Origin: Cyanobacteria bacterium SIG29
Lineage (GTDB): Bacteria > Cyanobacteriota > Vampirovibrionia > Gastranaerophilales > Gastranaerophilaceae
DNA length: 39,456 nucleotides
Assembly (NCBI GenBank): GCA_015152515.1
Contig: SUTV01000006.1
Coordinates: forward strand, 1-39,456
Reading direction: 5' to 3'
This document shows positions 15,839 to 27,897 of the stretch, one piece after another (within the stretch, counting starts at the first letter, position 1; each line of letters begins with the position of its first letter). The translations under genes and the position numbers were made by a program. The notes under the pieces are model-generated. The model saw only the letters and a list, made by a program, of their open reading frames with translations, was not told the DNA's origin and made no database searches.

Positions 15839-15912
15839 GTGCCTGTAGCTCAGCTGGATAGAGTGTTTGGCTACGAACCAAAAGGTCGGGGGTTCGAATC
15901 CCTCCAGGCACG
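15839..15912 (+). tRNA. tRNA-Arg(ACG)
   Basis: A full cloverleaf is seen: acceptor GTGCCTG (15839-15845) pairs with CAGGCAC (15905-15911), discriminator G at 15912, D-arm AGCTCAGCTGGATAGAGT, anticodon loop CTACGAA with anticodon ACG, and T-arm GGTTCGAATCCC. CCA is not encoded and must be added by CCA-adding enzyme. ACG implies conversion of A34 to inosine by TadA for decoding CGU/CGC/CGA. Its 3' end is duplicated twice downstream in the 110-bp array. Confidence 0.96.
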
Positions 15913-15917
15913 CATTT

Positions 15918-15941
15918 ACTTCCTTGAATGGAAGTTTTTTT
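15918..15941 (+). terminator. tRNA-Arg terminator (copies at 16028-16051 and 16138-16161)
   Basis: ACTTCC (15918-15923) pairs with GGAAGT (15930-15935) around TTGAAT, followed by seven T residues. Because it lies in the repeat unit, the tRNA is followed by three successive terminators. The second copy has TCGAAT in the loop. Confidence 0.88.
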
Positions 15942-15970
15942 ATGTCGGGATTCTCACCCAAGGGTTCTTA

Positions 15971-16010
15971 CCTCTCGAAAAATGATATTTAATCATTTTT
16001 CTCGGCAGAG
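15971..16010. repeat. Hairpin element copy 1 (tRNA-Arg locus)
   Basis: Outer ends CTCTCG and CTCGGCAGAG flank a 9-bp stem AAAAATGAT/ATCATTTTT with loop ATTTA. Same family as the copies at 16081, 27609, 27702, 27790 and 27833. Confidence 0.85.
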
Positions 16011-16080
16011 TCTCCAGGCACGCATTTACTTCCTCGAATGGAAGTTTTTTTATGTCGGGATTCTCACCCAAGGGTTCTTA

Positions 16081-16120
16081 CCTCTCGAAAAATGATATTT
16101 AATCATTTTTCTCGGCAGAG
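16081..16120. repeat. Hairpin element copy 2 (tRNA-Arg locus)
   Basis: Identical to the copy at 15971-16010 and exactly 110 bp downstream of it. Confidence 0.85.
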
Positions 16121-16225
16121 TCTCCAGGCACGCATTTACTTCCTTGAATGGAAGTTTTTTTATGTCAAAAATGTATGGTTTACTTTAGTCAATAAAATAT
16201 AAAGAACTCCTAGAGCGAAGTATTA

Positions 16226-18007
16226 TCATTCATCTAAATTTGTCGAAATAACGCAACCATTTAAGGTCATTTTGTTATCATTACTTCGACCTTTTCTTAA
16301 AAACTCTTTTAGTTCATCTAATTCAACATCTATTTTTTTAGCTGCGGCTTCTAAGCTGTCATATTCAAAGTAATCTCCATGTCGACCAATTACATATACC
16401 TTTGTAATAGTTTCTTTTGTTCGTTTTTCCATTGAGTCTTCATATACAAATCTATATCCGCCGGTTGTTTGTTGAACACCTCTTAAGCAGTTTCCTATTT
16501 TTTTCTTGTCTATTCCTAAAACTTTTGCTGCTGATTCTTTATTTATGAATCTTCTTCTTTTGTTATCTTCATCTATCGCATAAATTGGTCTATTTATTTC
16601 TTTCGCGAGATTGTTTGCAAACTGATTTAAAATGTCTTCATTGATAGTTATTTTGCCGTTATCATAAATTTCTACATATCTTGCTCTTATTACAGCTTTA
16701 TTTTTTATGCTATTTAATAAGCCGTTTGCACAAGCACTAACTGCAGAATCTTGTACGCCAAGTGCTTTTGCTACATCTTTTGCTGATGTATATCTTTTGT
16801 ATTTTCCATTTTTATTTACTACATATAAGTCATTTTTTATAGTTAGATAAAATTTTTCTGCTAATTTTTTGTGATTTATGGAAGTTGTTCCATCTGGATT
16901 TACAATTTCTGCTTCATCAACGCGAATAAAAGCATATCCACCAGCAGTTTCAGTAACTTCCCTTAAATTATTGCTGATGTTCCAGCTTGATATATTTAAT
17001 TCTCTTGCAGCACTGCCGATTGTATTGAACTTTATTATTTCTCCTCTGTTATTAATTGCGTAAATCGGTACAGGTGTAGAGTTATTAAATGTGTCATCTG
17101 AAATATTTACATTCACAACTACATTTCCATTTTCATCTGTACTTTCTATTTCATCAGCGTAAACAAAAGTGAATCCTTTTGCTGTTTTTCTTTCTCCTGT
17201 TAAACAATTTGTTATTGCTGTATGGTAAATTCCAAGCTTTTTACTTGCGTCGCTATTCTTTTCAAATCGTTCGTAGTTTCCATATTCATCTATTGCATAA
17301 AAAGCTTTTGCATCAGGTTTTCTTTTTTTTGCTTCAATTATTTCTTCTTGTTTCTTTAATATTTTTCTTTTATCAACACTTATAGAACCGTCTTTGCTTG
17401 TTCTTTCTACATCATCTGCATATAAAAAACCATATCCCATTGCGGTTGTTTTATCTCCACAAAGACAGTTAGAAATGTTAGACGCTTTTACATTTAGGTC
17501 TTTAGCTGCTTCTCTAATACTTGCGTGTTTTGAATATTTTCCGTTAATATCTATTGCGTAAACGGCTCTTTGTCCTTTATTTGTTTTTAGACTTTCTTTT
17601 TTCTCTTCAATTTTTTTCTTTAATGCTTCCATATCAAGAACATATGTTCCATCTTGTGCTTTTGTTTCAACTTCTCTTGCATAGAAAAAGAAGTAACCAT
17701 TTGATATATTTCTTGTGTTTTGCAAGCATTTATATATATTTGCATTTGTTGCGCCAGTTTTTTCTATTGCTTCTTTTTTAGATGTATATCTTACATAGTT
17801 TCCTTCCATATCCACAGCATAAAATGGTTCTGCTGGTTTTCCACAGAAACATATATTGTAGTTCCCAATAGCATTTAAATAGTCAAAAGTATTTGTTTTT
17901 TTATTTGACTGATTATTGTTTGTACTCTCTTTTTGATTTTCTTTTTGATATTTAAATGCGTAGTTAGGGTATAAATTTTTTGTTGACCATATCTGCATAA
18001 TCCACAT
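16226..18007 (-). CDS. Protein of seven tandem NUMOD1/IENR1-like repeats
   Basis: The protein has 593 residues with seven copies of a module: YAID-x-x-G-x-Y at the start, an [SA]-x-x-[EA]-AA-x-x-L-[GN]-[IV] helix-turn-helix-like core, then I-x-x-CL-x-G and TAGGY-x-F-x-Y. Copies lie at about 60-110, 147-200, 234-286, 313-365, 392-445, 473-525 and 536-588. The pattern matches the NUMOD1/IENR1 DNA-binding modules found beside GIY-YIG or HNH homing nucleases. Here no nuclease domain is present. Residues 120-145 and 205-232 are Lys/Glu-rich helical linkers. An alternative start is Met4 (17998). The gene sits about 60 bp beyond the tRNA-Arg array. A DNA- or RNA-binding role is inferred. Confidence 0.8.
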   Translation of the reverse strand: MWIMQIWSTKNLYPNYAFKYQKENQKESTNNNQSNKKTNTFDYLNAIGNYNICFCGKPAEPFYAVDMEGNYVRYTSKKEAIEKTGATNANIYKCLQNTRNISNGYFFFYAREVETKAQDGTYVLDMEALKKKIEEKKESLKTNKGQRAVYAIDINGKYSKHASIREAAKDLNVKASNISNCLCGDKTTAMGYGFLYADDVERTSKDGSISVDKRKILKKQEEIIEAKKRKPDAKAFYAIDEYGNYERFEKNSDASKKLGIYHTAITNCLTGERKTAKGFTFVYADEIESTDENGNVVVNVNISDDTFNNSTPVPIYAINNRGEIIKFNTIGSAARELNISSWNISNNLREVTETAGGYAFIRVDEAEIVNPDGTTSINHKKLAEKFYLTIKNDLYVVNKNGKYKRYTSAKDVAKALGVQDSAVSACANGLLNSIKNKAVIRARYVEIYDNGKITINEDILNQFANNLAKEINRPIYAIDEDNKRRRFINKESAAKVLGIDKKKIGNCLRGVQQTTGGYRFVYEDSMEKRTKETITKVYVIGRHGDYFEYDSLEAAAKKIDVELDELKEFLRKGRSNDNKMTLNGCVISTNLDE

Positions 18008-18060
18008 AAAACATCTAAATATAAATTTTGCTTTTTTATAAAAATCTATGTTTTAAACTT

Positions 18061-19773
18061 CTAAATTAATTTAAGTTCTCTAGATTCTTCTAGTGCAAAT
18101 TTTGATGTTTTTGTAAATTCTTCTTTGTTATAACCTTCTGGTTCTGGAGTTATGCATTTAAAATCAAATCCATATTGGAATGCTGATGGAACTTGTACAA
18201 CAATGTGTTCGTATTCACCTAATACAGAATTTACGCAGTGTTCAACTCCTGCATCAATTACGGCTAAATCGCCTTCTTTTAATATTTTTATTTCTGGTTT
18301 TCCATTTCTTACAACTTCTAAAGCAGCAGCGCCACTTGTGATTAGATACATTTCTGTTTGGCGTTTTTCGTCTCTATTTGGATGTCTATGTAATTTTTCA
18401 CCTTTTCTTAGTTCATTCATTGAAAAAACTCTATTTTCATCTGTTTGAACAAGAGATGTTCCTATAAATGGTGTTGTGCCATCAGAAGCACCTAACGCTG
18501 TTGAATTTGTTACCCAATTGGTTTTTTCTAATGTCCAGTTGTTTACTTTGTCGTTTAAATTATATACAGCTACATTTTTATTTATAAATTTTAAACCGCT
18601 AATATCAAAACCAGTTTTGTTTTCATCTTTCCAATATTTTACAATTATATTTTGTTCTTCTGGGGTAAAGTTTTCTTTTGTTAATTTTGTTCTTAATGCT
18701 TCTTCGCTTCCAAAAGAATCAATCCAAAAGATATAATCAGTCATTTTTTGATTGTTATGTATAATTTTTGTTGATTTTAGTTTTTTAATAATATCTTCAG
18801 GCAAATCTTGAACTTTACTTGCTCTTGCAAATCTAGAATCGCTGTGCAGTGTTTTTGTTTGTTTGTATAAAGGCATTAATTGTTGAATTTCTTCTTCACT
18901 AAAGCCTTTTTCTTTAAATATTTTTGTTTGGTATTCTACATTATAAAAACTTTTAAATCTTATATAACCATTGTCTTTTGTTTCAATTAAATTTGTTTCA
19001 AATAGTTTCGTTAATAATGCTTTTGATTTGTCGAATTCTTTTTTATCTTCTTCTGATAAAGAATCTCTTTTGGCTGTTAAATCTGCGATTAAGTTATTAG
19101 CAGATTTATATTTATCTATTCCTAAATTCTTTAAAAAGCTTTCGCTTGTTAATTTTTCAGGTAATAACATATTTGGTGAAAATTCACCATTATATAAGTG
19201 AGAATTGTAATACATTAACTCTAAAAATTTGTTTTGAATGGATTCATTTTGTGAGTTTTTGCCGTATCTTTCGTACCAATCATAGTCTTTTTTTGAAAGA
19301 ACAATCATTGGATAACCTTTTTTGATTTTAACTTTTGCTTCTGTACCACCATTTATCATTACGGCTGAATTTTCTGGTAGGGGTATTGTTTCACCTTTTA
19401 TTTCTAATGTGCCTTCGCATTTTTTAGGAATGATTACTTGTGTATCATATATAAATTCTGATTCTCTATTTAAATAAGAAATTGCTTTTTTACCGTATAT
19501 AACTTCTGTTTGAGAATCAAAGTCAACAACATAAGAACCATTGTTTTTTGTTTCTAATAATGGAATATCTTCTTCTTCTCTTGTAATTAAAAAGGCACTT
19601 TTTATGTTTTGAGCGTTGCCTGAAAAAGAAATTGGTAAGTAGTTTGCTTGAACATTTGCACTTGTATATCTTGAATTAATTGATGTTGCATAACTTTTTT
19701 GTGACTGATTTTTGTTTTCAACATTATTAATTTTAGGGCTATATGTTTTGAAATTTATTGCATTTATATTCAT
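18061..19773 (-). CDS. Leader-bearing protein with C-terminal cupin domain
   Basis: The protein has 570 residues. It begins MNINAINFKTYSPKINN and reaches ISFSGN at about residue 52, the same kind of leader as in the proteins at 7561-8004 and 25739-27448. The C-terminal 130 residues are a cupin: GEKLHRHPNRDEKRQTEMYLITSG holds the H-x-H ... E metal ligands of motif 1, and GDLAVIDAGVEHCVNS holds the G-x5-P/A-x-G-x2-H of motif 2. The middle part (about 150-430) is not recognised and has a helical stretch with repeated LTKEN/FTPEEQ-like turns. The substrate is unknown; sugar-isomerase-like cupins are one possibility. Confidence 0.75.
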   Translation of the reverse strand: MNINAINFKTYSPKINNVENKNQSQKSYATSINSRYTSANVQANYLPISFSGNAQNIKSAFLITREEEDIPLLETKNNGSYVVDFDSQTEVIYGKKAISYLNRESEFIYDTQVIIPKKCEGTLEIKGETIPLPENSAVMINGGTEAKVKIKKGYPMIVLSKKDYDWYERYGKNSQNESIQNKFLELMYYNSHLYNGEFSPNMLLPEKLTSESFLKNLGIDKYKSANNLIADLTAKRDSLSEEDKKEFDKSKALLTKLFETNLIETKDNGYIRFKSFYNVEYQTKIFKEKGFSEEEIQQLMPLYKQTKTLHSDSRFARASKVQDLPEDIIKKLKSTKIIHNNQKMTDYIFWIDSFGSEEALRTKLTKENFTPEEQNIIVKYWKDENKTGFDISGLKFINKNVAVYNLNDKVNNWTLEKTNWVTNSTALGASDGTTPFIGTSLVQTDENRVFSMNELRKGEKLHRHPNRDEKRQTEMYLITSGAAALEVVRNGKPEIKILKEGDLAVIDAGVEHCVNSVLGEYEHIVVQVPSAFQYGFDFKCITPEPEGYNKEEFTKTSKFALEESRELKLI

Positions 19774-19834
19774 AGCAACTCCTTATGCCCTTTTAAAGTT
19801 CATCAAGAATTTTTATTGCTTTATCAATTAAGAT

Positions 19835-19862
19835 TTGTAAATAAGACTGCCTGTAATATAAT
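19835..19862 (+). promoter_or_regulatory. bioA promoter
   Basis: TTGTAA (19835-19840), 16-bp spacer and TATAAT (19857-19862), 17 bp before the bioA start. No BirA-type long inverted repeat was recognised over it. Confidence 0.65.
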
Positions 19863-19879
19863 TGTATTGAGGTATTTTT

Positions 19880-21244
19880 ATGAACAAAGAAGAATTAATT
19901 CAAGAAGATTTAAAGTATATTTGGCGTCCATTTACTCAAATGAAATCTTTGGAAAATGAGCAAAATAAACCTATTGTTATCAAAAAAGGTAAAGGAATTT
20001 ATTTAGAAGATATTGATGGAAAAAAGTATATTGATGCTGTATCTTCTTGGTGGGTAAATACTTTAGGTCATTCTAATTCAAGAATTAATAAAGTAATTTA
20101 TAAACAAGCGAAAAAAATTGAACATGTTATTTTTGCTGGCTTTACACACGAAGGTGTTGTTAAATTCTCTAAAAAATTAGTTTCTTTGATGAATAATAAA
20201 TTAACTCATGTTTTCTTCTCTGATAATGGTTCAACTGCTGTTGAAGTTGCGTTAAAGATGGCTTATCAATATCACGTTTTAAAAGGACATCCTGAAAAGA
20301 AAAAATTTATTGCTTTAAAAAATTCGTATCACGGTGATACTTTAGGTGCTGTTTCTGTTGGTGGTATTGATATGTATCATAAGCTTTATAAACCTTTATT
20401 GTTTGAGGTTGTTCAAGCTGAAAGTCCATATTGCTATCGCTGTCCAATGGGTTGTAATAAAGAAAATTGTTCAATTGAATGTTTGTCCTCTGTTGAAAAT
20501 ATTTTAAAAGAGCAAGATGGTAATATCGCCGGTGTTATTATTGAACCTTTAGTTCAAGCTGCTGGTGGAATGATTATGTATCCACCAGAGTATATTTTAA
20601 AATTGCGTATGTTGTGTGATAAATATAATGTTTTATTAATTGATGATGAAGTTGCAATGGGCTTTTACCGCACAGGTAAATTGTTCGCTTATGAACACGC
20701 TAATATCGTTCCTGATATTATATGTGCAGCAAAAGGAATAACAGCTGGATATATGCCTTTATCTGTTACTGTTACAACAGATGAAATTTATAATGCTTTT
20801 TATGATGATGATATAGATGGATATAAAACTTTTTATCACGGTCATAGCTACACAGCGTATCCACTTGCGTTAGCTGTTGCATTGGAAAATTTAAAAATTT
20901 TAGAAGAAATGAAAATTGAAGAATATTTAAAACCTAAAATTGAAAAATTTTCAAAAGAATTAGAAAAATTTCGTTCTCATAAAAATGTCGGTGATATAAG
21001 ACAAACTGGTATGATTTGTGCAATTGAGCTTGTTAAAGATAAAACCACAAAAGAACCATTTGCTTATGAAGATGCAATTGGTAAGAAAATTTATTTAGAA
21101 GGTTTAAAACTTGGTGCAATATTAAGACCAATGTGGAATTGCATTTATTTTATAACTCCATATATAATTAAAGATAAAGAAATTGAAAAACTAACAGATA
21201 TTGCTTTAGAAGCTTTAAATAGAGTTCTTCCTAATGAGGAGTAA
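19880..21244 (+). CDS. bioA: BioA, adenosylmethionine-8-amino-7-oxononanoate aminotransferase
   Basis: BioA transfers an amino group from S-adenosylmethionine (or lysine in some bacteria) to 7-keto-8-aminopelargonate in biotin synthesis. The protein has 454 residues, with WRPFTQM at 15-21, SSWWVNTLGH near 55-64 and the PLP lysine K285 in CAAKGITAGYMPLS. An insert at 185-201 holds five cysteines (CYRCPMGCNKENCSIEC), a variant of the CYRCP segment common in BioA. bioD follows after 2 bp. bioF and bioB are not in the window. Amino-donor preference cannot be read from the sequence with confidence. Confidence 0.95.
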   Translation: MNKEELIQEDLKYIWRPFTQMKSLENEQNKPIVIKKGKGIYLEDIDGKKYIDAVSSWWVNTLGHSNSRINKVIYKQAKKIEHVIFAGFTHEGVVKFSKKLVSLMNNKLTHVFFSDNGSTAVEVALKMAYQYHVLKGHPEKKKFIALKNSYHGDTLGAVSVGGIDMYHKLYKPLLFEVVQAESPYCYRCPMGCNKENCSIECLSSVENILKEQDGNIAGVIIEPLVQAAGGMIMYPPEYILKLRMLCDKYNVLLIDDEVAMGFYRTGKLFAYEHANIVPDIICAAKGITAGYMPLSVTVTTDEIYNAFYDDDIDGYKTFYHGHSYTAYPLALAVALENLKILEEMKIEEYLKPKIEKFSKELEKFRSHKNVGDIRQTGMICAIELVKDKTTKEPFAYEDAIGKKIYLEGLKLGAILRPMWNCIYFITPYIIKDKEIEKLTDIALEALNRVLPNEE

Positions 21245-21246
21245 AT

Positions 21247-21921
21247 ATGAATTATTTTATTACCGGAATTGATACAGATATTGGTAAAACTTTTATTACA
21301 AAAGGTCTTGCTTTATTATTTGAGTCTGAAGGTAAAAAAGTTGGTGTTTTTAAACCAGTACAATCTGGTGCAATAAAAGAGCGTGGTAAATTTATTGCTC
21401 CTGATTTAGAGGCTATAAGAGTTCTTTCAAATAATATAAAAACAAGCAATTCATATTTATTTGAAGGTGAAGTTTCACCTGCTTTGGCTGCTCGTTTATC
21501 TGGAATAAAAGTTGATATTAATAAAATAAAAAATGATTTTGATGAATTTATTAAAGATACTGATGTGACTTTAATTGAAGGTGCAGGTGGACTTTTAGCT
21601 CCTGTCAGTGACGATTTTTTATGTGCTGATTTAATTAAAAAATTAGATGTTCCTATAATAATTGTTACTGCTCCATTTTTGGGCAGATTGAATCATACTC
21701 TTTTAACAATTCATTATGCTAAATCTGTGGGTATAAAAATCAAAGGTATAATTGTAAATAAAGTTCCAGAACATTGTGATAATTTAGCGACTAAAAACTT
21801 TATTGATGAGCTAAAACGATATACAGATGTTGAAATTTTAGGTGAAATACACGATATTAATTGCGTTAATCCTGACTGTATTATTGATGAATTTAAAAAA
21901 ATTAGAGTGGCTTTTTCTTAA
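21247..21921 (+). CDS. bioD: BioD, dethiobiotin synthetase
   Basis: ATP-dependent carboxylation and ring closure of 7,8-diaminopelargonate to dethiobiotin. The protein has 224 residues. The P-loop is GIDTDIGKT (7-15), the substrate lysine lies in GVFKPVQSGA, and EGAGGLLAPVSD carries the phosphate-contact Glu-Gly motif. It starts 2 bp after bioA with GGAG just upstream of the ATG, so the two are co-translated. Its last 20 bp overlap the convergent rsmG gene, with no room for a terminator, so antisense transcription over both 3' ends is likely. Confidence 0.95.
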   Translation: MNYFITGIDTDIGKTFITKGLALLFESEGKKVGVFKPVQSGAIKERGKFIAPDLEAIRVLSNNIKTSNSYLFEGEVSPALAARLSGIKVDINKIKNDFDEFIKDTDVTLIEGAGGLLAPVSDDFLCADLIKKLDVPIIIVTAPFLGRLNHTLLTIHYAKSVGIKIKGIIVNKVPEHCDNLATKNFIDELKRYTDVEILGEIHDINCVNPDCIIDEFKKIRVAFS

Positions 21922-22594
21922 CTAAGCCATTTTTTCTAGGATAACAGTCTAAAACATTTTTGTTTTTTTTGAAAATTAACAATACTCTTGAGTTGTTTTC
22001 TTCTATCGGTAAATTGTATTCTATTTTATCAATCAAAACTGCATTTAATGATTTTAGAGCATTTTTTGCATTGTCCAATTCTTCATTTGCTTTTAGGGAT
22101 TTGTATGCAATAAAATAACCACCAACTTTTGTATATGGAATAGCATATTCTAATATTTCTCTTAAATCTGCCATTGCTCTTGTTGTAACAATATCAAAGC
22201 TATTTTTTAAGTTTTCTGGTAAGTCTTCAACCCTAGAGCATATTGGTTTTATATTGTTGATATTTAATTCTGATTTTGCGTGATTAATAAAATTAATTTT
22301 TTTATTGATTGAATCGACAGCGCTTATTTGCATTTCATCAAAAACTAAAGCTAATGGTATGGATGGAAACCCGCCACCTGTGCCAATATCTAATACTTTA
22401 ATTTTTTTGTTTGTTAAAAATAAGTTCATAGCTAAACTATCAAAAATATGTTTTTCAAATAATACTTTTGAATCATTATTGCTAATTAAATTAACATTTT
22501 CGTTGTAGTTTAAAAATAAAGAAATGTATTTATCAAATAATTCTTTTTTCTCTTCAGTTAGGTTTATATTTAATGTGTTTAACTTGTTATACAT
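21902..22594 (-). CDS. rsmG: RsmG (GidB), 16S rRNA m7G527 methyltransferase
   Basis: SAM-dependent methylation of N7 of G527 in the 530 loop of 16S rRNA. The protein has 230 residues. The SAM loop VLDIGTGGGFPSIPLAL lies at about 68-84, and the family motif NSRVLLIFKKNK is near the C-terminus. Its ATG overlaps the TAA of the upstream NTPase/TPR gene by one base (TAATG), implying translational coupling. The last 20 bp overlap bioD. Loss of this gene gives low-level streptomycin resistance in other bacteria. Confidence 0.95.
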   Translation of the reverse strand: MYNKLNTLNINLTEEKKELFDKYISLFLNYNENVNLISNNDSKVLFEKHIFDSLAMNLFLTNKKIKVLDIGTGGGFPSIPLALVFDEMQISAVDSINKKINFINHAKSELNINNIKPICSRVEDLPENLKNSFDIVTTRAMADLREILEYAIPYTKVGGYFIAYKSLKANEELDNAKNALKSLNAVLIDKIEYNLPIEENNSRVLLIFKKNKNVLDCYPRKNGLVKKKPL

Positions 22595-25119
22595 TATCTT
22601 TTTTTCTTTATTTCTTCAATGATTTTATTGAATTCACTTTCGCCTAATAGTGTTTTTATTTTATTAATTTTATTATTAGTTTTAATTGATAAATCTTCTT
22701 CGCTATGTGGCGAAATTAGTCTTTTTGCTAGTATGTAAGACTTAATTGAGGCTTTGTAGTCAGCTTTATTTAAGTAATAGTCGCCTAATTCTATGTAAAT
22801 TGCAATTGCATAATTTATATCATCAAATCTTTTTGCACAAGAAAGGGCTTTTAAAAGCAGTTCGTAAGTCTTTTCTGGTGCTTCTTTTTTGTATAGTGAT
22901 GATAATTTAAGATAAGAATAATATAAGCCTTCGATATTATTTTGTTTTTTGTCTGCTTCTATAGATAAATCGAAATACATTTTCCCAGCTGTTGTATTTC
23001 CGTTTGCAATTGAAATTTCTGCTAGGTTTGAATATGCAGATGACATATATGAATTTTCTTCTGGATTATTAGATGCTTGTACACATCTTAAGTAATATTT
23101 AATTGCTAAATCCGTCTTGTTTACATCATCAAGTAATAATGCATATTTAAAATAGCATTCAGTTAGAAGCTTAATGTTGGTAATTTTTTCAGCTTCATTT
23201 AGTGCTTTTTGTATAAATTTTATTGAAGCTTCTATATCGCCATTATTATCTTCAATTTCCGATAAATTAATGTAAACTCTTACAATTGTTTCTGAGTCAA
23301 CACCGTTTGGAGAGTATAAAATCCTTTTATAATATTCTTTTGCTTTATCAAATTTATAAAGTTCAGTATACATTTGAGCAATTTCTAAAAGAATACTATT
23401 TGCATTTTCTGGTGATTTTTCAAGATAAATATTATAAACTTTTTCATATAATCTTGTTGCTTCATCAGTTTCTTGAATTTTTTTATTGCAATTTGCTAAT
23501 TTTAAATAAATGATTGGTTCTTGCTCTTCAAAGTCATCATCTAATGTGTATGTAAGTGCTTTTTTATAGTACAAAATCGCAGAAGAATAATTGTATGCTG
23601 ATTCATATTCGTGTGCTATTTCAATATAATCATTAAGAGTTTGTGGTACATCAAGTTCTGGTGTATCTAATATTTCTGAAATTTCTTCGTTATTTATTTC
23701 AGAAAGTTCTTTTAATTCTTGTCCTAATTCGTCATCAGCAATATTTTTAAGAAAAATATTTGTTTCTTTTTTTAATTTTTCATCATTGTTTTTGGTTCTT
23801 TTACTGATTGCTTTTGCGTATCTTTTTTGTAATTCAGTTCTTTTTTCTTCTTTTTTATCATACCCACTTACACGAGAGTAACTAAAATAGTTAAAATCTT
23901 GAGTCTCTGGTAATTTTGTTTTACCTGATTTAATTAAATCTTCTCTTAAAGATTTAATTTTTTCTTTGTGATATGCAATTTCTTGTCTCATTGTTTGACG
24001 AGATAAGAATAATTGGCGTTCAAATGGTTTTAATGGCAGTTCGGTTTCATATAGTTCAACCATAAATTTATGAACTTTAATTTTTGATTCTAAATTTATT
24101 GATTTGATAAATTCATTTTTTAAGTAATCTTTTAAATAATATTTACCAAATTTTTCAGCTAAAACATGTTTTTGCAACAGAAAATTTATATCTTCTACCG
24201 TTGCAATTTCTTGGGTTAGTATAAAATCTAAGCTAACACCGTGTCTTACAGTCGCTAAAAATAATAAAATTTTTACGAATTTATCAGAAGTTGTATTTAA
24301 TATTTTGTATATTAAAAATTCTAAAAAGTTTTTAGTGGATTTTTTATATTCTGTTGAAAAAATAGTTAAATTTAATCTTAAAAGTTGCATTATAAAAACT
24401 GATAATTCAAGTAATAAAAAATGCCCTCTTATTGATTTGAATAAAATTTCTTTTTCAAAGTTAGAACCAGTGATTTCATTTTGTTCTAAATAATCTAAAA
24501 CTTCTTCTTTTGATAATGATTCTAAAACATATTCACTGCAACCAATTTGAGAAATTAAATCTTGTGCTTTGAATGATCTTGAACAAATTAATATTTTTAC
24601 TTTTTCAAAGTGGCTTAAATAGTTTATAAAATCTAATATGTCTTTTTGAGAATCTTTGCTTCTTGTATTTATATCAAATGAATCGAAAATAAATAACATT
24701 GGAGAATTGCAATGTTTAATGTATGAATTGATTTTCTCAGAAAAAATATTTGATTCTATTTTTGGTAGAGTTATTTTTTTATCATTGTGATAAATCGAAA
24801 AATCTTTAAATAATGACAATAAAATATCATCAGAATTAATTGCTTCTTGGTAAGAATTTTTAAAAATTAAAACATTTTCATTTATAAATTCTAAAATAAA
24901 ATCTGCTGTATAGGTCTTACCTGAACCCATAAAACCATTTAAAACAAAGATGTTATCTGAACCATTTAAAAAATTTAATATAGAAGATATCGCATCTATA
25001 TTATGTTTTAGTATAAAAGAATTTTCTTTTCCTTCAATAGAATGTTCAAGAGCAGTTTTGTTTACTCTTGTTCCATCTATAAAATCATTTAAATTTTCTT
25101 TTAAAAAATTGTAATTCAT
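22594..25119 (-). CDS. STAND/AAA-like NTPase with C-terminal TPR repeats
   Basis: The protein has 841 residues. An N-terminal P-loop NTPase domain has Walker A GFMGSGKT (62-69), Walker B MLFIFDSFD (141-149) and a sensor-like ILICSRS, followed by a winged-helix-like region. A basic linker (about 370-450) leads to eight or so TPR-like helical pairs (about 495-815, for example YSSAILYYKKALTYT, DEATRLYEKVYNIY, GDIEASIKFIQKALNEA). This NTPase-plus-TPR plan is that of STAND signalling ATPases, but no effector domain is obvious. It is coupled by TAATG to rsmG. Both a regulatory and a defence role are possible. The ligand is unknown. Confidence 0.8.
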   Translation of the reverse strand: MNYNFLKENLNDFIDGTRVNKTALEHSIEGKENSFILKHNIDAISSILNFLNGSDNIFVLNGFMGSGKTYTADFILEFINENVLIFKNSYQEAINSDDILLSLFKDFSIYHNDKKITLPKIESNIFSEKINSYIKHCNSPMLFIFDSFDINTRSKDSQKDILDFINYLSHFEKVKILICSRSFKAQDLISQIGCSEYVLESLSKEEVLDYLEQNEITGSNFEKEILFKSIRGHFLLLELSVFIMQLLRLNLTIFSTEYKKSTKNFLEFLIYKILNTTSDKFVKILLFLATVRHGVSLDFILTQEIATVEDINFLLQKHVLAEKFGKYYLKDYLKNEFIKSINLESKIKVHKFMVELYETELPLKPFERQLFLSRQTMRQEIAYHKEKIKSLREDLIKSGKTKLPETQDFNYFSYSRVSGYDKKEEKRTELQKRYAKAISKRTKNNDEKLKKETNIFLKNIADDELGQELKELSEINNEEISEILDTPELDVPQTLNDYIEIAHEYESAYNYSSAILYYKKALTYTLDDDFEEQEPIIYLKLANCNKKIQETDEATRLYEKVYNIYLEKSPENANSILLEIAQMYTELYKFDKAKEYYKRILYSPNGVDSETIVRVYINLSEIEDNNGDIEASIKFIQKALNEAEKITNIKLLTECYFKYALLLDDVNKTDLAIKYYLRCVQASNNPEENSYMSSAYSNLAEISIANGNTTAGKMYFDLSIEADKKQNNIEGLYYSYLKLSSLYKKEAPEKTYELLLKALSCAKRFDDINYAIAIYIELGDYYLNKADYKASIKSYILAKRLISPHSEEDLSIKTNNKINKIKTLLGESEFNKIIEEIKKKR

Positions 25120-25181
25120 ATTAATTATTATAATATAATTCCCAAGTTTTTGAATATCAAAATCATTGATTATATTTTAAA

Positions 25182-25523
25182 TTACCATTTTTTAAAGATG
25201 AAGAAAACAGCCAAAATGATGAAGGCAAAACCAACTAGATAATTCCATCTAAATTCTTCTTTTAAATATAGTATAGAAAACACGCTAAAAACAATTAATG
25301 TAATAACTTCTTGGATTGTTTTTAATTGTGCTGCACTGAAGTATTCGTGACCAATTCTGTTTGCTGGAACCTGAAAACAATATTCTAACAATGCAATTAA
25401 CCAACTTACAATAATGACAATCCATAGTGCTGTACTTTTAAACTTTAAATGTCCATACCACGCAAATGTCATGAATATATTTGATATAGTTAATAGTATT
25501 ATTGGTAAAAATTGTCTAAACAT
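25182..25523 (-). CDS. DUF486 (DMT-like) small membrane protein
   Basis: The protein has 113 residues and four membrane helices. The FMTFAWYGHLKF segment, the SWLIALLEYCFQVPANRIG motif after helix 2 and the QLKTIQEVITL motif before helix 3 are diagnostic of the DUF486 family, which is related to small multidrug-resistance type transporters. Function is not established in the family. It stands alone; the 215-bp gap to the next gene holds the phosphohexomutase promoter. Confidence 0.9.
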   Translation of the reverse strand: MFRQFLPIILLTISNIFMTFAWYGHLKFKSTALWIVIIVSWLIALLEYCFQVPANRIGHEYFSAAQLKTIQEVITLIVFSVFSILYLKEEFRWNYLVGFAFIILAVFFIFKKW

Positions 25524-25692
25524 ATTTTAAATTATATTATTAAAATAAATTTTTGAATATTATAAAACTTTATAAATTCTCTTGTTTTTTATTTTTTTTG
25601 TATAATATATAAATATTATTTCTGTAATGGTCATTAAATTTTAGTGATAGTAAAAATTCTTAATATAATGTCAACAAATAACAAAAAAAATT

Positions 25693-25721
25693 TTGTTCGA
25701 GTTTTGTATCAGAGTTAAATA
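25693..25721 (+). promoter_or_regulatory. Candidate promoter of the phosphohexomutase gene
   Basis: TTGTTC (25693-25698), 17-bp spacer and TAAATA (25716-25721), followed by a GTGAGGGG ribosome site before the ATG at 25739. A short AACAAAA/TTTTGTT inverted repeat lies over the -35 box. Other TATAAT strings at about 25601 and 25662 may also serve. Confidence 0.45.
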
Positions 25722-25738
25722 TATGTGAGGGGTAAAAA

Positions 25739-27448
25739 ATGAATATTAGTAGTATCGGATTTTCAAGTCCTATTGCGCATCGTAATGTTTTATCAGTTGA
25801 TAAAAGATTTGCTGTACCATTTATTAAATCAACTCCAGCGGATAGTGTTAGTTTTACTGGTGTTAAAAAAGTTCCAGTTACAAAGGATGTTGAACAAGTA
25901 AAAAAAGCTGCAGATAGTTTGAGTACATCAACTTCTGGACATAGAGCTATTTATGGTAGTGAATTGTTTGATGCAGAATTAATGAAACTATTTTCTGTAG
26001 GTGTTGCACAATATGCACAAGAGCATGCTGCAGAAAATGGTAGAAAACAACCAGTTGTTATGCTTGGTGGTGACACTAGAGTTGCAACAAGGGAATCTTT
26101 CCCAGTAATTCAAGAAGCATTACAAAAAGCTGGTGTTACTGTTTTAAAAGTTGAAGAACCTGTTGCGACTCCAATTTTAGCAGCTATGGCAGAAGAATTA
26201 TCAGACAAAGTTGATATTACAATTTTGATGACAGCAAGCCACAATCCATGGGAATATGGTGGATTTAATATGCTTACACCAGATGGTGCTGTTGCTCCAT
26301 CAGAAATTACTCAAAAAGTAGCAGCTAATGTTAAAAATGTTGCTGAAAAAGGTTTCTATTATGAAAGAACTGCGGATGAAATAAAACCAGTTATTCAAAT
26401 TGATCCATTTGAAAATTATGCTCAATTACTTGAATCACTTGATTTAATTGATTTTGACAACATTAAAGATTCTGGTGTTAAAATTTTCTATGATTCATTA
26501 GGTGGTACTGGTGATTATTCTTTCCCTAAATTAATGGATAAACACGGTATTGAAATTTCTCAATTGCCTAATGCTGATAGAGATTTAGAAGGTCCTGAAC
26601 CAAATGAAAAGAATCTTTCTTATTTATCTAAAATGGTTAAATTAGATGATTCTGAACTAAAAATAGGTCTTGCTAACGACGGTGACGCAGATAGATTTGG
26701 TGTTATCGACGCAGATGGTCGTTATATTACTCCAAATGAAGTTATTTTCTTAACAGCATATCATCTTCATAAAAATAAAGGTTTAGAAGGACCAATCGTT
26801 AGAAGCCAAGTAACAACTTCTTTGCTTGATGCTTATGCAGATAAACATGATATTCCTACACTTGTTACACCTGTTGGCTTCAAATTTTTAGCAGATGAGA
26901 TTATTAATGCTCGTAATAATGGTGGTGATATCTTAGTAGCTGGTGAAGAATCTGGTGGTTTAACTGTTCCAGGTCATATTCCAGAAAAAGATGGTATTGT
27001 TGCTGTATTATTAATGGCTGATTTAATGGCTCAAGAAAAGAAACCTTTAGGTCAAATCCTTGATGATATTAAATTAGAATCTGATTTGCATTTTGATTCT
27101 TATGGTACTTCAAAGAAACTTGAAAGTGATGCTGATAAAGCTGCGATAATGTCTAAAATGGAAAAAGTTTTAGATGATGCTGTGTCAGGTAAGAATGTTG
27201 AGTTCCTTCCTGGATTCTTTATTGATGTTGATAAATCAGTTTCTCATAGAAACAGAATGATTGAATACAAAGGAAATTCTGATGGTGTAAAATTGTTCTT
27301 TACTAATGGTTCTCAGCTTACTGTTCGTAAGAGTGGTACTGAACCAAAAGTAAGAGTTTCAATTGACTCTATGGGAAAATCAGATCAAGAAGCTCAAGCA
27401 AATTGTTCTGCATTAAAAGAAAGTATTGATGATATTTTAGCAGTTTAA
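25739..27448 (+). CDS. Phosphoglucomutase/phosphomannomutase with N-terminal leader
   Basis: Alpha-D-phosphohexomutase, interconverting hexose 1- and 6-phosphates. The catalytic core starts near residue 64 and has all four motifs: phosphoserine loop TASHNP with S167, metal loop DGDADR (314-319), sugar loop GEESGG (402-407) and phosphate loop RKSGTEPKVR near the C-terminus. The core length is normal. It is preceded by about 45 residues, MNISSIGFSS to SVSFTGVKK, the leader also found on the proteins at 7561-8004 and 18061-19773. Such an extension is unusual on this enzyme. A bidirectional terminator follows, and a ROK sugar kinase lies beyond the tRNA-Met array, so both may serve glucose phosphate metabolism. 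Confidence 0.92.
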   Translation: MNISSIGFSSPIAHRNVLSVDKRFAVPFIKSTPADSVSFTGVKKVPVTKDVEQVKKAADSLSTSTSGHRAIYGSELFDAELMKLFSVGVAQYAQEHAAENGRKQPVVMLGGDTRVATRESFPVIQEALQKAGVTVLKVEEPVATPILAAMAEELSDKVDITILMTASHNPWEYGGFNMLTPDGAVAPSEITQKVAANVKNVAEKGFYYERTADEIKPVIQIDPFENYAQLLESLDLIDFDNIKDSGVKIFYDSLGGTGDYSFPKLMDKHGIEISQLPNADRDLEGPEPNEKNLSYLSKMVKLDDSELKIGLANDGDADRFGVIDADGRYITPNEVIFLTAYHLHKNKGLEGPIVRSQVTTSLLDAYADKHDIPTLVTPVGFKFLADEIINARNNGGDILVAGEESGGLTVPGHIPEKDGIVAVLLMADLMAQEKKPLGQILDDIKLESDLHFDSYGTSKKLESDADKAAIMSKMEKVLDDAVSGKNVEFLPGFFIDVDKSVSHRNRMIEYKGNSDGVKLFFTNGSQLTVRKSGTEPKVRVSIDSMGKSDQEAQANCSALKESIDDILAV

Positions 27449-27454
27449 AAACAA

Positions 27455-27487
27455 TAAAAAAGAGGTGATAATCACCTCTTTTTTTTT
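27455..27487. terminator. Bidirectional terminator between the mutase gene and tRNA-Met
   Basis: GAGGTGA (27461-27467) pairs with TCACCTC (27471-27477) around TAA, flanked by six A on the left and ten T on the right. It can end the mutase mRNA on the plus strand and the tRNA-Met precursor on the minus strand. Confidence 0.9.
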
Positions 27488-27493
27488 ATTATT

Positions 27494-27565
27494 TGGGCCC
27501 GGCAGGATTCGAACCTGCGACCAAGGGATTATGAGTCCCCTGCGCTACCGCTGCGCCACAAGCCC
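27494..27565 (-). tRNA. tRNA-Met(CAT), elongator type
   Basis: Minus-strand cloverleaf of 72 nt: acceptor GGGCTTG pairs with CGGGCCC through two G-T wobbles, discriminator A (27494). The D-arm is GCGCAGCGGTAGCGC, the anticodon loop CTCATAA contains CAT, and the T-arm is GCAGGTTCGAATCCTGC. A paired G1-C72 excludes initiator tRNA. The body is like cyanobacterial elongator tRNA-Met, but a tRNA-Ile(CAT) modified to lysidine cannot be fully excluded. CCA is not encoded. Its 5' end is repeated three more times upstream in the adjacent array. Confidence 0.94.
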
Positions 27566-27608
27566 ATGCTTTGTTTAGTTTACTTTGCGGTATCGCCTGC
27601 GCTACCTA

Positions 27609-27646
27609 CCTCTCGTCGAGAACATTTAGTTCTCTCCTCGGCAGAG
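27609..27646. repeat. Hairpin element copy 3 (tRNA-Met locus)
   Basis: Outer ends CTCTCG and CTCGGCAGAG, inner stem GAGAAC/GTTCTC, loop ATTTA. Confidence 0.85.
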
Positions 27647-27701
27647 TGCCACAAGCCCATGCTTTGTTTAGTTTACTTTGCGGTATCGCCTGCGCTACCT
27701 A

Positions 27702-27739
27702 CCTCTCGTCGAGAACATTTAGTTCTCTCCTCGGCAGAG
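27702..27739. repeat. Hairpin element copy 4 (tRNA-Met locus)
   Basis: Identical to copy 3, 93 bp further on. Confidence 0.85.
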
Positions 27740-27789
27740 TGCCACAAGCCCATGCTTTGTTTAGTTTATTTTGCGGTATCGCCTGCTAT

Positions 27790-27828
27790 CTCTCTCAAAA
27801 CGATACTTAATCGTTTTGTTCGGCAGAG
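27790..27828. repeat. Hairpin element copy 5 (tRNA-Met locus)
   Basis: Outer ends CTCTCTC and CGGCAGAG, inner stem AAAACGAT/ATCGTTTT, loop ACTTA. This is the most divergent copy and directly abuts copy 6. Confidence 0.82.
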
Positions 27829-27832
27829 TCTA

Positions 27833-27870
27833 CCTCTCGTCGAAAACATTTAGTTTTCTCCTCGGCAGAG
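27833..27870. repeat. Hairpin element copy 6 (tRNA-Met locus)
   Basis: Outer ends CTCTCG and CTCGGCAGAG, inner stem GAAAAC/GTTTTC, loop ATTTA. Relative to copies 3 and 4 one G-C stem pair is an A-T pair. Confidence 0.85.
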
Positions 27871-27897
27871 TGCCACAAGCCTATTGCCTACATAAAT

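Follow-up and report, generated by a model that had tools for sequence, protein, structure and literature searches.

In a stretch of 39,456 nucleotides from Cyanobacteria bacterium SIG29 (Gastranaerophilaceae; contig SUTV01000006.1, positions 1 to 39,456; hereafter the window), six copies of a hairpin repeat, which we named K, form two arrays that each begin at an intact tRNA gene. We interpret K as the right-hand terminus, conserved between copies, of a short mobile DNA unit that carries no genes, enters mainly tRNA genes and leaves the gene whole, a reading to which we assign a probability of about 0.58. The right end GGCAGAG-T was joined to target DNA directly behind N-T-N-C. An 8-20 nt gene end (B) flanked the insert on both sides, so that the gene was whole and a K-tagged stump lay outside it. 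The units formed tandem arrays, and identical or near-identical hairpins occurred at different tRNAs within one genome. An earlier note on this DNA had correctly described a hairpin family with covarying stems and tRNA linkage, and had missed that the copies are the ends of insertions that restore the tRNA.

Two hairpin arrays in the window

The pattern CTCTC..CGGCAGAG found six hairpin copies in the window (seven pattern rows, one copy having two possible starts, 27790 and 27792) and a mean of 0 in 100 dinucleotide shuffles. The ends (CTCTC and CGGCAGAG), the loops (ATTTA and ACTTA) and the stems were as the earlier note had given them, and the copies measured 37-39 bp rather than 38-40 bp. 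Array 1 lies behind the 3-prime end of tRNA-Arg on the sense strand and array 2 behind the 5-prime end of tRNA-Met on the antisense strand. The rows below list both arrays.

15839..15913, + strand: intact tRNA-Arg(acg), target of array 1
15902..15913, + strand: B of array 1 within the intact gene, CTCCAGGCACGC, right behind ATCC
15947..15959, + strand: linker segment that repeats the T-arm inverted and imperfectly, GGGATTCTCACCC (score 16, under the counting cut-off of 18)
15972..16010, + strand: hairpin K1 (foot TTAC at 15968-15971; final T at 16011)
16012..16023, + strand: second copy of B, from the 3-prime end of tRNA-Arg, with a terminator copy behind it
16082..16120, + strand: hairpin K2 (foot TTAC; final T at 16121)
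16122..16133, + strand: third copy of B, followed by a terminator
27493..27566, - strand: intact tRNA-Met(cat), target of array 2
27555..27566, + strand: B of array 2 within the intact gene, antisense GCCACAAGCCCA, right behind CTGC
27587..27606, + strand: linker hairpin, the D-arm copied inverted and then direct (GCGGTATCGCC TGCGCTACC)
27610..27646, + strand: hairpin K3 (foot TAC; final T at 27647)
27648..27659, + strand: second copy of B in array 2
27703..27739, + strand: hairpin K4 (foot TAC; final T at 27740; third B at 27741-27752)
27790..27828, + strand: hairpin K5, nested in unit 3
27834..27870, + strand: hairpin K6, one matched pair off K3 and K4 (GAGAAC/GTTCTC to GAAAAC/GTTTTC)
27872..27883, + strand: final copy of B, GCCACAAGCCTA; the outer flank comes next

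Five of the six hairpins have on their right a 12-nt B that repeats the tRNA end: CTCCAGGCACGC at Arg and GCCACAAGCCCA at Met, where the last copy carries one change. The statement that each copy abuts a tRNA fragment was therefore accurate for these five, with the fragment on the right, and did not apply to the sixth (27790-27828), which lies inside the third Met unit and borders on the left foot of K6 (27834-27870). At this site units 1 and 2 read CCTGC[GCTAC]CTACC, and unit 3 reads CCTGC-TAT-K5-T-CTACC. The same genome (82.5% complete) held two more K, one at tRNA-Leu(tag) and the other with no tRNA within the 7 kb examined.

Junctions, filled and empty sites, and linkage to tRNA genes

We compared junctions in distinct tRNA arrays; hairpins that folded weaker than -4 kcal/mol were dropped from the junction and tRNA-distance counts. 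In 97 of 103 arrays the B to the right of K matched the neighbouring gene's own end, and the six arrays lacking such a match were excluded. K lay antisense on the 5-prime side of the gene in 76 of the 97 (D-type) and sense on the 3-prime side in 21 (T-type). B began exactly one base past GGCAGAG in 96 of the 97 arrays, and the base between the two was T in 126 of 127 copies. In the intact gene, N-T-N-C preceded the junction in 96 of 96 cases (CTAC, CTGC, TTCC, CTCC, TTTC, ATCC, ATAC and GTCC). B comprised 8, 10-14 or 17-20 nt of the gene, and 36 in one array. The exact repeat often stopped near the gene end (0 to 5 nt past it in 18 of the 31 single D-type arrays with 11-14 nt), and it reached up to 77 nt. 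On the left side a short arm copy ran into the foot, and 34 arrays traded 5 or 6 target nt for a foot of 3 or 4. Among 127 copies the foot was CTAC in 39 and TTAC in 23, with many other sequences besides.

The linkers between gene and hairpin often carried copies of the target itself. An inverted copy of the gene's own arm (score >=18) was found in 37 of 97 linkers, compared with 28 of 486 comparisons with other isotypes, and all 37 adjoined the junction. A stretch within three changes of TATTTAATTTTCAA lay near the tRNA in 50 of 81 D-type linkers, in 0 of 21 T-type linkers and at 17 of 83 tRNAs without K. Such A+T-rich stretches (antisense to the tRNA) were also seen right before tRNAs in tandem-tRNA spacers, for example in loci L179, L260 and L266. 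Because some of the K-less occurrences are spacers between tandem tRNAs, the motif is possibly a lineage-wide tRNA leader or processing signal.

Filled and empty alleles were compared at orthologous loci from 29 genomes of the same genus, with 20 loci fetched per tRNA and the anchor present in 19 (Met) and 10 (Arg). At tRNA-Met, ten of the 19 loci held a K unit (some with GGCACAGT) and six held none; one looked decayed, one ran into a contig end inside K and one was cut off. In the empty genomes G205 and G198, GCCACAAGCCC was followed immediately by the native flank. The filled genome G208 showed GCCACAAGCCC, a 54-nt linker, K, a second GCCACAAGCCC and the same native flank, giving an insert of ~105 bp that left tRNA-Met whole. 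At tRNA-Arg, G000 and G191 were filled, and no K stood within 300 bp at the other eight loci. Copies of a dispersed repeat in genome G098 gave a further comparison of sequence without and with K: GGGGTC[ACTTC]CG against GGGGTC-TAC-K-T-CG, and at a second site CTCGC[ACTCC]GTG against CTCGC-TAC-K-T-GTG.

K was strongly enriched near tRNAs, as the earlier note had proposed. A tRNA lay within 300 bp of 7 of 8 K in the window's own genome and of 16 of 20 in G077, a zone that makes up <=1.3-1.4% of the genome; tandem copies are not independent, and counted by site the own genome had three of four linked to a tRNA. The further claim that K occurs only in tRNA-linked arrays did not hold. Of 284 distinct copies, 66 too close to a locus end were left out, and among the 218 with 300 bp on either side (not a random sample) 139 had a tRNA within 300 bp and 79 did not. 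The tRNA was on the left of K alone in 123 cases, on the right alone in 3 and on both sides in 13. One of the three right-side exceptions, L200 on the minus strand, is a whole tRNA-Pro pseudo-copy beside the intact gene with K in its D-arm (GTGC-TAC-K-T-CAAA in place of GTGC[GCTAC]CAAA); by eye, its T-loop holds a second, different hairpin element. Some of the tRNA-distant K lay in 5S rRNA duplicates, in dispersed repeats or as intergenic hairpins. In L019 and L049 an intact 5S gene stood to the left of K, and L067 had the same right flank as these two and no Rfam hit. In G077 one and the same K was present at tRNA-Pro and at tRNA-Leu, and in the own genome the K at tRNA-Arg and that at tRNA-Leu were nearly identical.

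Spread of K and covariation of its stem

Of 146 genomes sampled from the window's family, 137 contained the K pattern, with 1443 matches summed (a few chance or double-start matches included) versus 18 for the reversed pattern. It was absent from nine of the 146, four of them >=90% complete (G008 and G046 of genus g9, G056 and G073), and G073 gave one match to a covariance model despite having no pattern match. This model, built from 43 copies, matched in 95 of 95 genomes of the window's family. In other families it matched in 3 of 4 genomes (f6), 1 of 3 (f7) and 0 of 15 (f2-f5); in f6, arrays at two tRNA-Met genes had the same layout as in the window's family. When GTDB genomes were scanned with one class of K, at least 115 stretches matched. 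The 80 titles listed among these comprise Gastranaerophilales, Melainabacteria and unnamed gut bacteria; four of the titles, with the labels Heliobacteriaceae, Clostridiaceae or Clostridia, are in our view misnamed. The highest pattern count was 81 in G098, where many of the K lie within the dispersed repeat. The search pattern does not catch variants ending in GGCACAGT at tRNA-Met (L357, L365, L366 and L368), so that some genomes hold at least as many copies as counted here. No viral contig matched when three K classes were scanned, and a phage origin was set aside. With Rfam 15, the window at gathering score gave two tRNAs and nothing else, and eight further loci at E up to 1 gave tRNAs and sub-threshold matches only. 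No description of K repeats was found in the PMC open library, in keeping with the view that the family has no name.

The alignment of mixed length recovered only the outer stem in RNAalifold, and covariation was therefore counted on gapless classes of 39 and 43 nt. Among the 24 distinct sequences of the 39-nt class, 7 of 10 inner pairs varied on both sides, with a score of 0.313 versus 0.097 in shuffled alignments; in the 43-nt class (30 sequences) the figures were 9 of 12 pairs and 0.361 versus 0.095. Neither score was reached in 500 shuffles, and slid structures scored <=0.126. The covarying stems of the earlier note were borne out. Its conclusion that compensating changes point to selection went further than these changes require: they are real, and templated correction of imperfect palindromes also yields them. 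Either shape selection or such correction may be their source, and the persistence of the unpaired bulge speaks for some selection. The K copies of one genome are kin, so the covariation events are not independent.

Proposed mode of movement and related systems

Under the reading of K as the right end of a mobile unit, the unit would consist of a linker and the hairpin, mostly ~65-150 bp, and would enter the tRNA D-arm read antisense or the T-arm read sense. An enzyme that cuts and joins DNA may recognise the hairpin as folded DNA; the ends, bulge and foot would then be fixed, and the stem free to change while its pairing holds. The inverted arm copies of the linker could arise by template switching in the folded arm during insertion. 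Since K lies antisense to the gene in one set of arrays and sense in the other, it probably acts as DNA. The mover might be an enzyme of the host, a transposase from a different family or an integrase that works in trans.

Several observations weigh against this reading. The 96 junctions represent 26 hexamer contexts and 14 combinations of isotype and arm and are not 96 independent tests, because tRNA arms are conserved. The left junction is ragged, with no clear arm copy left of the foot in 30 of 97 arrays, and no more than 17 of 96 arrays have a foot that matches the target tetramer, which is unlike simple insertion beside a tetranucleotide. The insertions into the G098 dispersed repeat have no flank repeat, so repetition of B is not an inevitable part of insertion. 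Pairing between the left and right flanks of K was marginal (mean -13.4 versus -12.3 kcal/mol when mispaired, p 0.04; L010 and L066, with hairpins weaker than -4 kcal/mol, were left out), and of the flank pairing only the inverted copies of the gene's own arm were retained as evidence. In the stem, further base-pair types were not more numerous than in shuffles in either the 39-nt or the 43-nt class, and the invariant outer stem is imposed by the search pattern, some genomes of the same genus having GGCACAGT. No enzyme for K was found, Y1_Tnp, RVT_1 and PF22083 fitting it neither in presence nor in proximity across the 146 genomes.

Other routes would explain parts of this evidence. Repetitive extragenic palindromes (REPs) are moved by REP-associated tyrosine transposases (RAYTs), Y1 HUH enzymes that use single-stranded hairpin DNA and cut beside a tetranucleotide. 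A repeat of this type would fit a short palindrome that often has a CTAC or TTAC foot and is cut behind a short tetranucleotide. It would also fit the higher K count in genomes with Y1_Tnp (median 10 versus 5 in those without, p 0.0005, kinship ignored) and the presence of K within a Y1-linked repeat in G098. We nevertheless consider this route unlikely: Y1_Tnp occurred in 49 of 146 genomes versus 137 for K, G077 had 20 pattern matches and no Y1 hit, and K was found in 4 of 38 Y1 loci, one of which (L085) belongs to a tRNA-Gln array. Repeated gene ends and restored genes are not known as features of REPs. On this mismatch of presence and proximity we rejected a RAYT as the partner of K. In L080 of G098, at about 1110-2200, a Y1 gene is flanked by two copies of the dispersed repeat, only one of which contains K; elsewhere in G098 this repeat also bears K at a second site.

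Movement through RNA by a reverse transcriptase, in the manner of target-primed retrotransposition, would produce a sharp right and a ragged left junction, repeats of variable length that often end near the gene end, and inverted filler copies. Its probability is small: RVT_1 was present in 65 of 146 genomes, K in 0 of 30 reverse transcriptase loci (which also sets K apart from LINE-like retroelements), and K number had no clear tie to the presence of the enzyme (p 0.08). On these figures it was discarded as a partner; the opposite strands of K in the 76 and 21 arrays also speak against it. We rate equally low a site-specific mini-element, a small circle with a tRNA end that recombines via B with Xer or another integrase supplied in trans. 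Elements that integrate at tRNAs carry an identity block that reaches the gene end and restores the gene, as is seen here, and the leader-like motif of D-type linkers would also fit. The insert of ~105 bp has no integrase gene, however; B differs at each tRNA while K is shared, so that each gene end would need fresh uptake; and K also enters dispersed repeats without a flank repeat.

Two further explanations appear very improbable to us. One takes K as a part of pre-tRNA transcripts that serves as RNA in processing or regulation and is under selection at tRNA loci; D-type units do lie in the tRNA leader and carry the A+T-rich leader-like motif, which is found between tandem tRNAs too. But the strand of K relative to transcription is opposite in D-type and T-type arrays, T-type units such as the Arg array of the window sit behind the terminator, 79 of 218 copies have no tRNA within 300 bp, and presence differs among species of one genus. 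Replication errors at palindromes (template switching and correction of imperfect palindromes, with no dedicated mover) would make inverted arm copies and compensating stem changes. A right junction exact to one base, a fixed target tetramer, identical K at different loci and an unpaired bulge that persists uncorrected are all difficult to obtain in this way.

A neighbouring gene was also considered as a source of the enzyme. Beside the Arg array (16226-18007, - strand) the window encodes a 593-aa protein with six DNA-binding repeats of I-HmuI/NUMOD type, in which no other nuclease domain was found in Pfam. It was rejected as the partner of K, PF22083 being present in 9 of 146 genomes of the family.

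K resembles several known systems in part. IS200/IS605 elements have hairpin ends and insert beside a short tetranucleotide, which is kept as the left flank with no repeat. K shares the hairpin end and the insertion beside a fixed short sequence (N-T-N-C), but in 79 of 96 arrays its foot is not the target tetramer, and B is repeated. Rickettsia palindromic elements are small palindromes inside genes that are retained in the gene product; K is likewise a small palindrome in genes, and differs in leaving a restored gene plus a K-tagged stump. With islands and phages that integrate at tRNAs, K shares the identity block to the gene end, the restored gene and the tandem arrays, whereas it is only ~0.1 kb long, has no integrase and uses both gene ends and many isotypes. 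No integrase gene was seen in K units (~105 bp at tRNA-Met in G208), and larger relatives were not searched systematically. The integron attC core GTTRRRY was not seen at K ends by eye (IntI was not searched for). We know of no tRNA-restoring layout among mitochondrial mobile hairpins.

Those hairpins (yeast GC clusters and sponge RHEs) are reported to be, like K, gene-less and of unexplained spread (PMC4478555, PMC2800124), but they belong to organelle genomes. REPs and their RAYTs, as outlined in PMC3733652, form a 20-40 bp class of GTAG- or CGTC-tagged palindromes that have an unpaired end tetranucleotide and are intergenic and present in many copies; K is similarly a repeated, intergenic palindrome with an unpaired end tetranucleotide and many copies per genome. 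Unlike REPs, K has a varied foot rather than a consistent GTAG or CGTC end; 39 of 127 copies have CTAC, which reads GTAG on the opposite strand. It also has no steady RAYT partner, and its insertion at tRNAs repeats and restores the gene end. Rickettsia palindromic elements are likewise named in PMC3733652.

Other hairpin inserts were seen at tRNA genes. A second family of ~80-110 nt with right end CAAGACA occurred in tRNA T-loops in the own genome (L270, L285, L287 and L323) and in relatives (L012 and L068). Its layout was like that of K, with a repeated gene end and an adjoining intact gene, and its stems differed yet were complementary. K was nested in a CAAGACA element in L068 and in a related element in L063. 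An L285 query gave four matches at E <0.001 in the own genome; the CAAGACA motif plus a stem gave 10 hits versus 7-16 for five control motifs, an uninformative count, and the family rests on single alignments judged by eye. Copies of a tRNA end without a nearby K were found at 6 of 27 tRNAs in the own genome (one inverted) and at 0 of 33 in the K-less G008. Loci L280 (tRNA-His) and L274 (tRNA-Asn) of the own genome had K-less inserts between the tRNA and the copy of its 3-prime end. Both inserts share a stretch around GCGAAG..AGCCGTAG, and L280 also holds an inverted T-arm copy.

More tentatively, and at rather less than even odds, K may be the end by which a new class of mobile DNA without genes is recognised. 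Such a class would target folded tRNA or 5S arms on either strand, be cut in after N-T-N-C with the gene end rebuilt, be kept by shape, and be moved by a new recombination enzyme, whose machinery the CAAGACA family may share. Islands and phages, which carry an integrase, often dock at tRNA genes. Here a gene-less unit of ~0.1 kb acts similarly at many tRNA isotypes and at both gene ends, in mostly uncultured gut bacteria. The filled and empty alleles, the one-base-exact junction, the target rule and the conservation by shape make recognition of folded DNA, and the enzyme responsible, directly testable.

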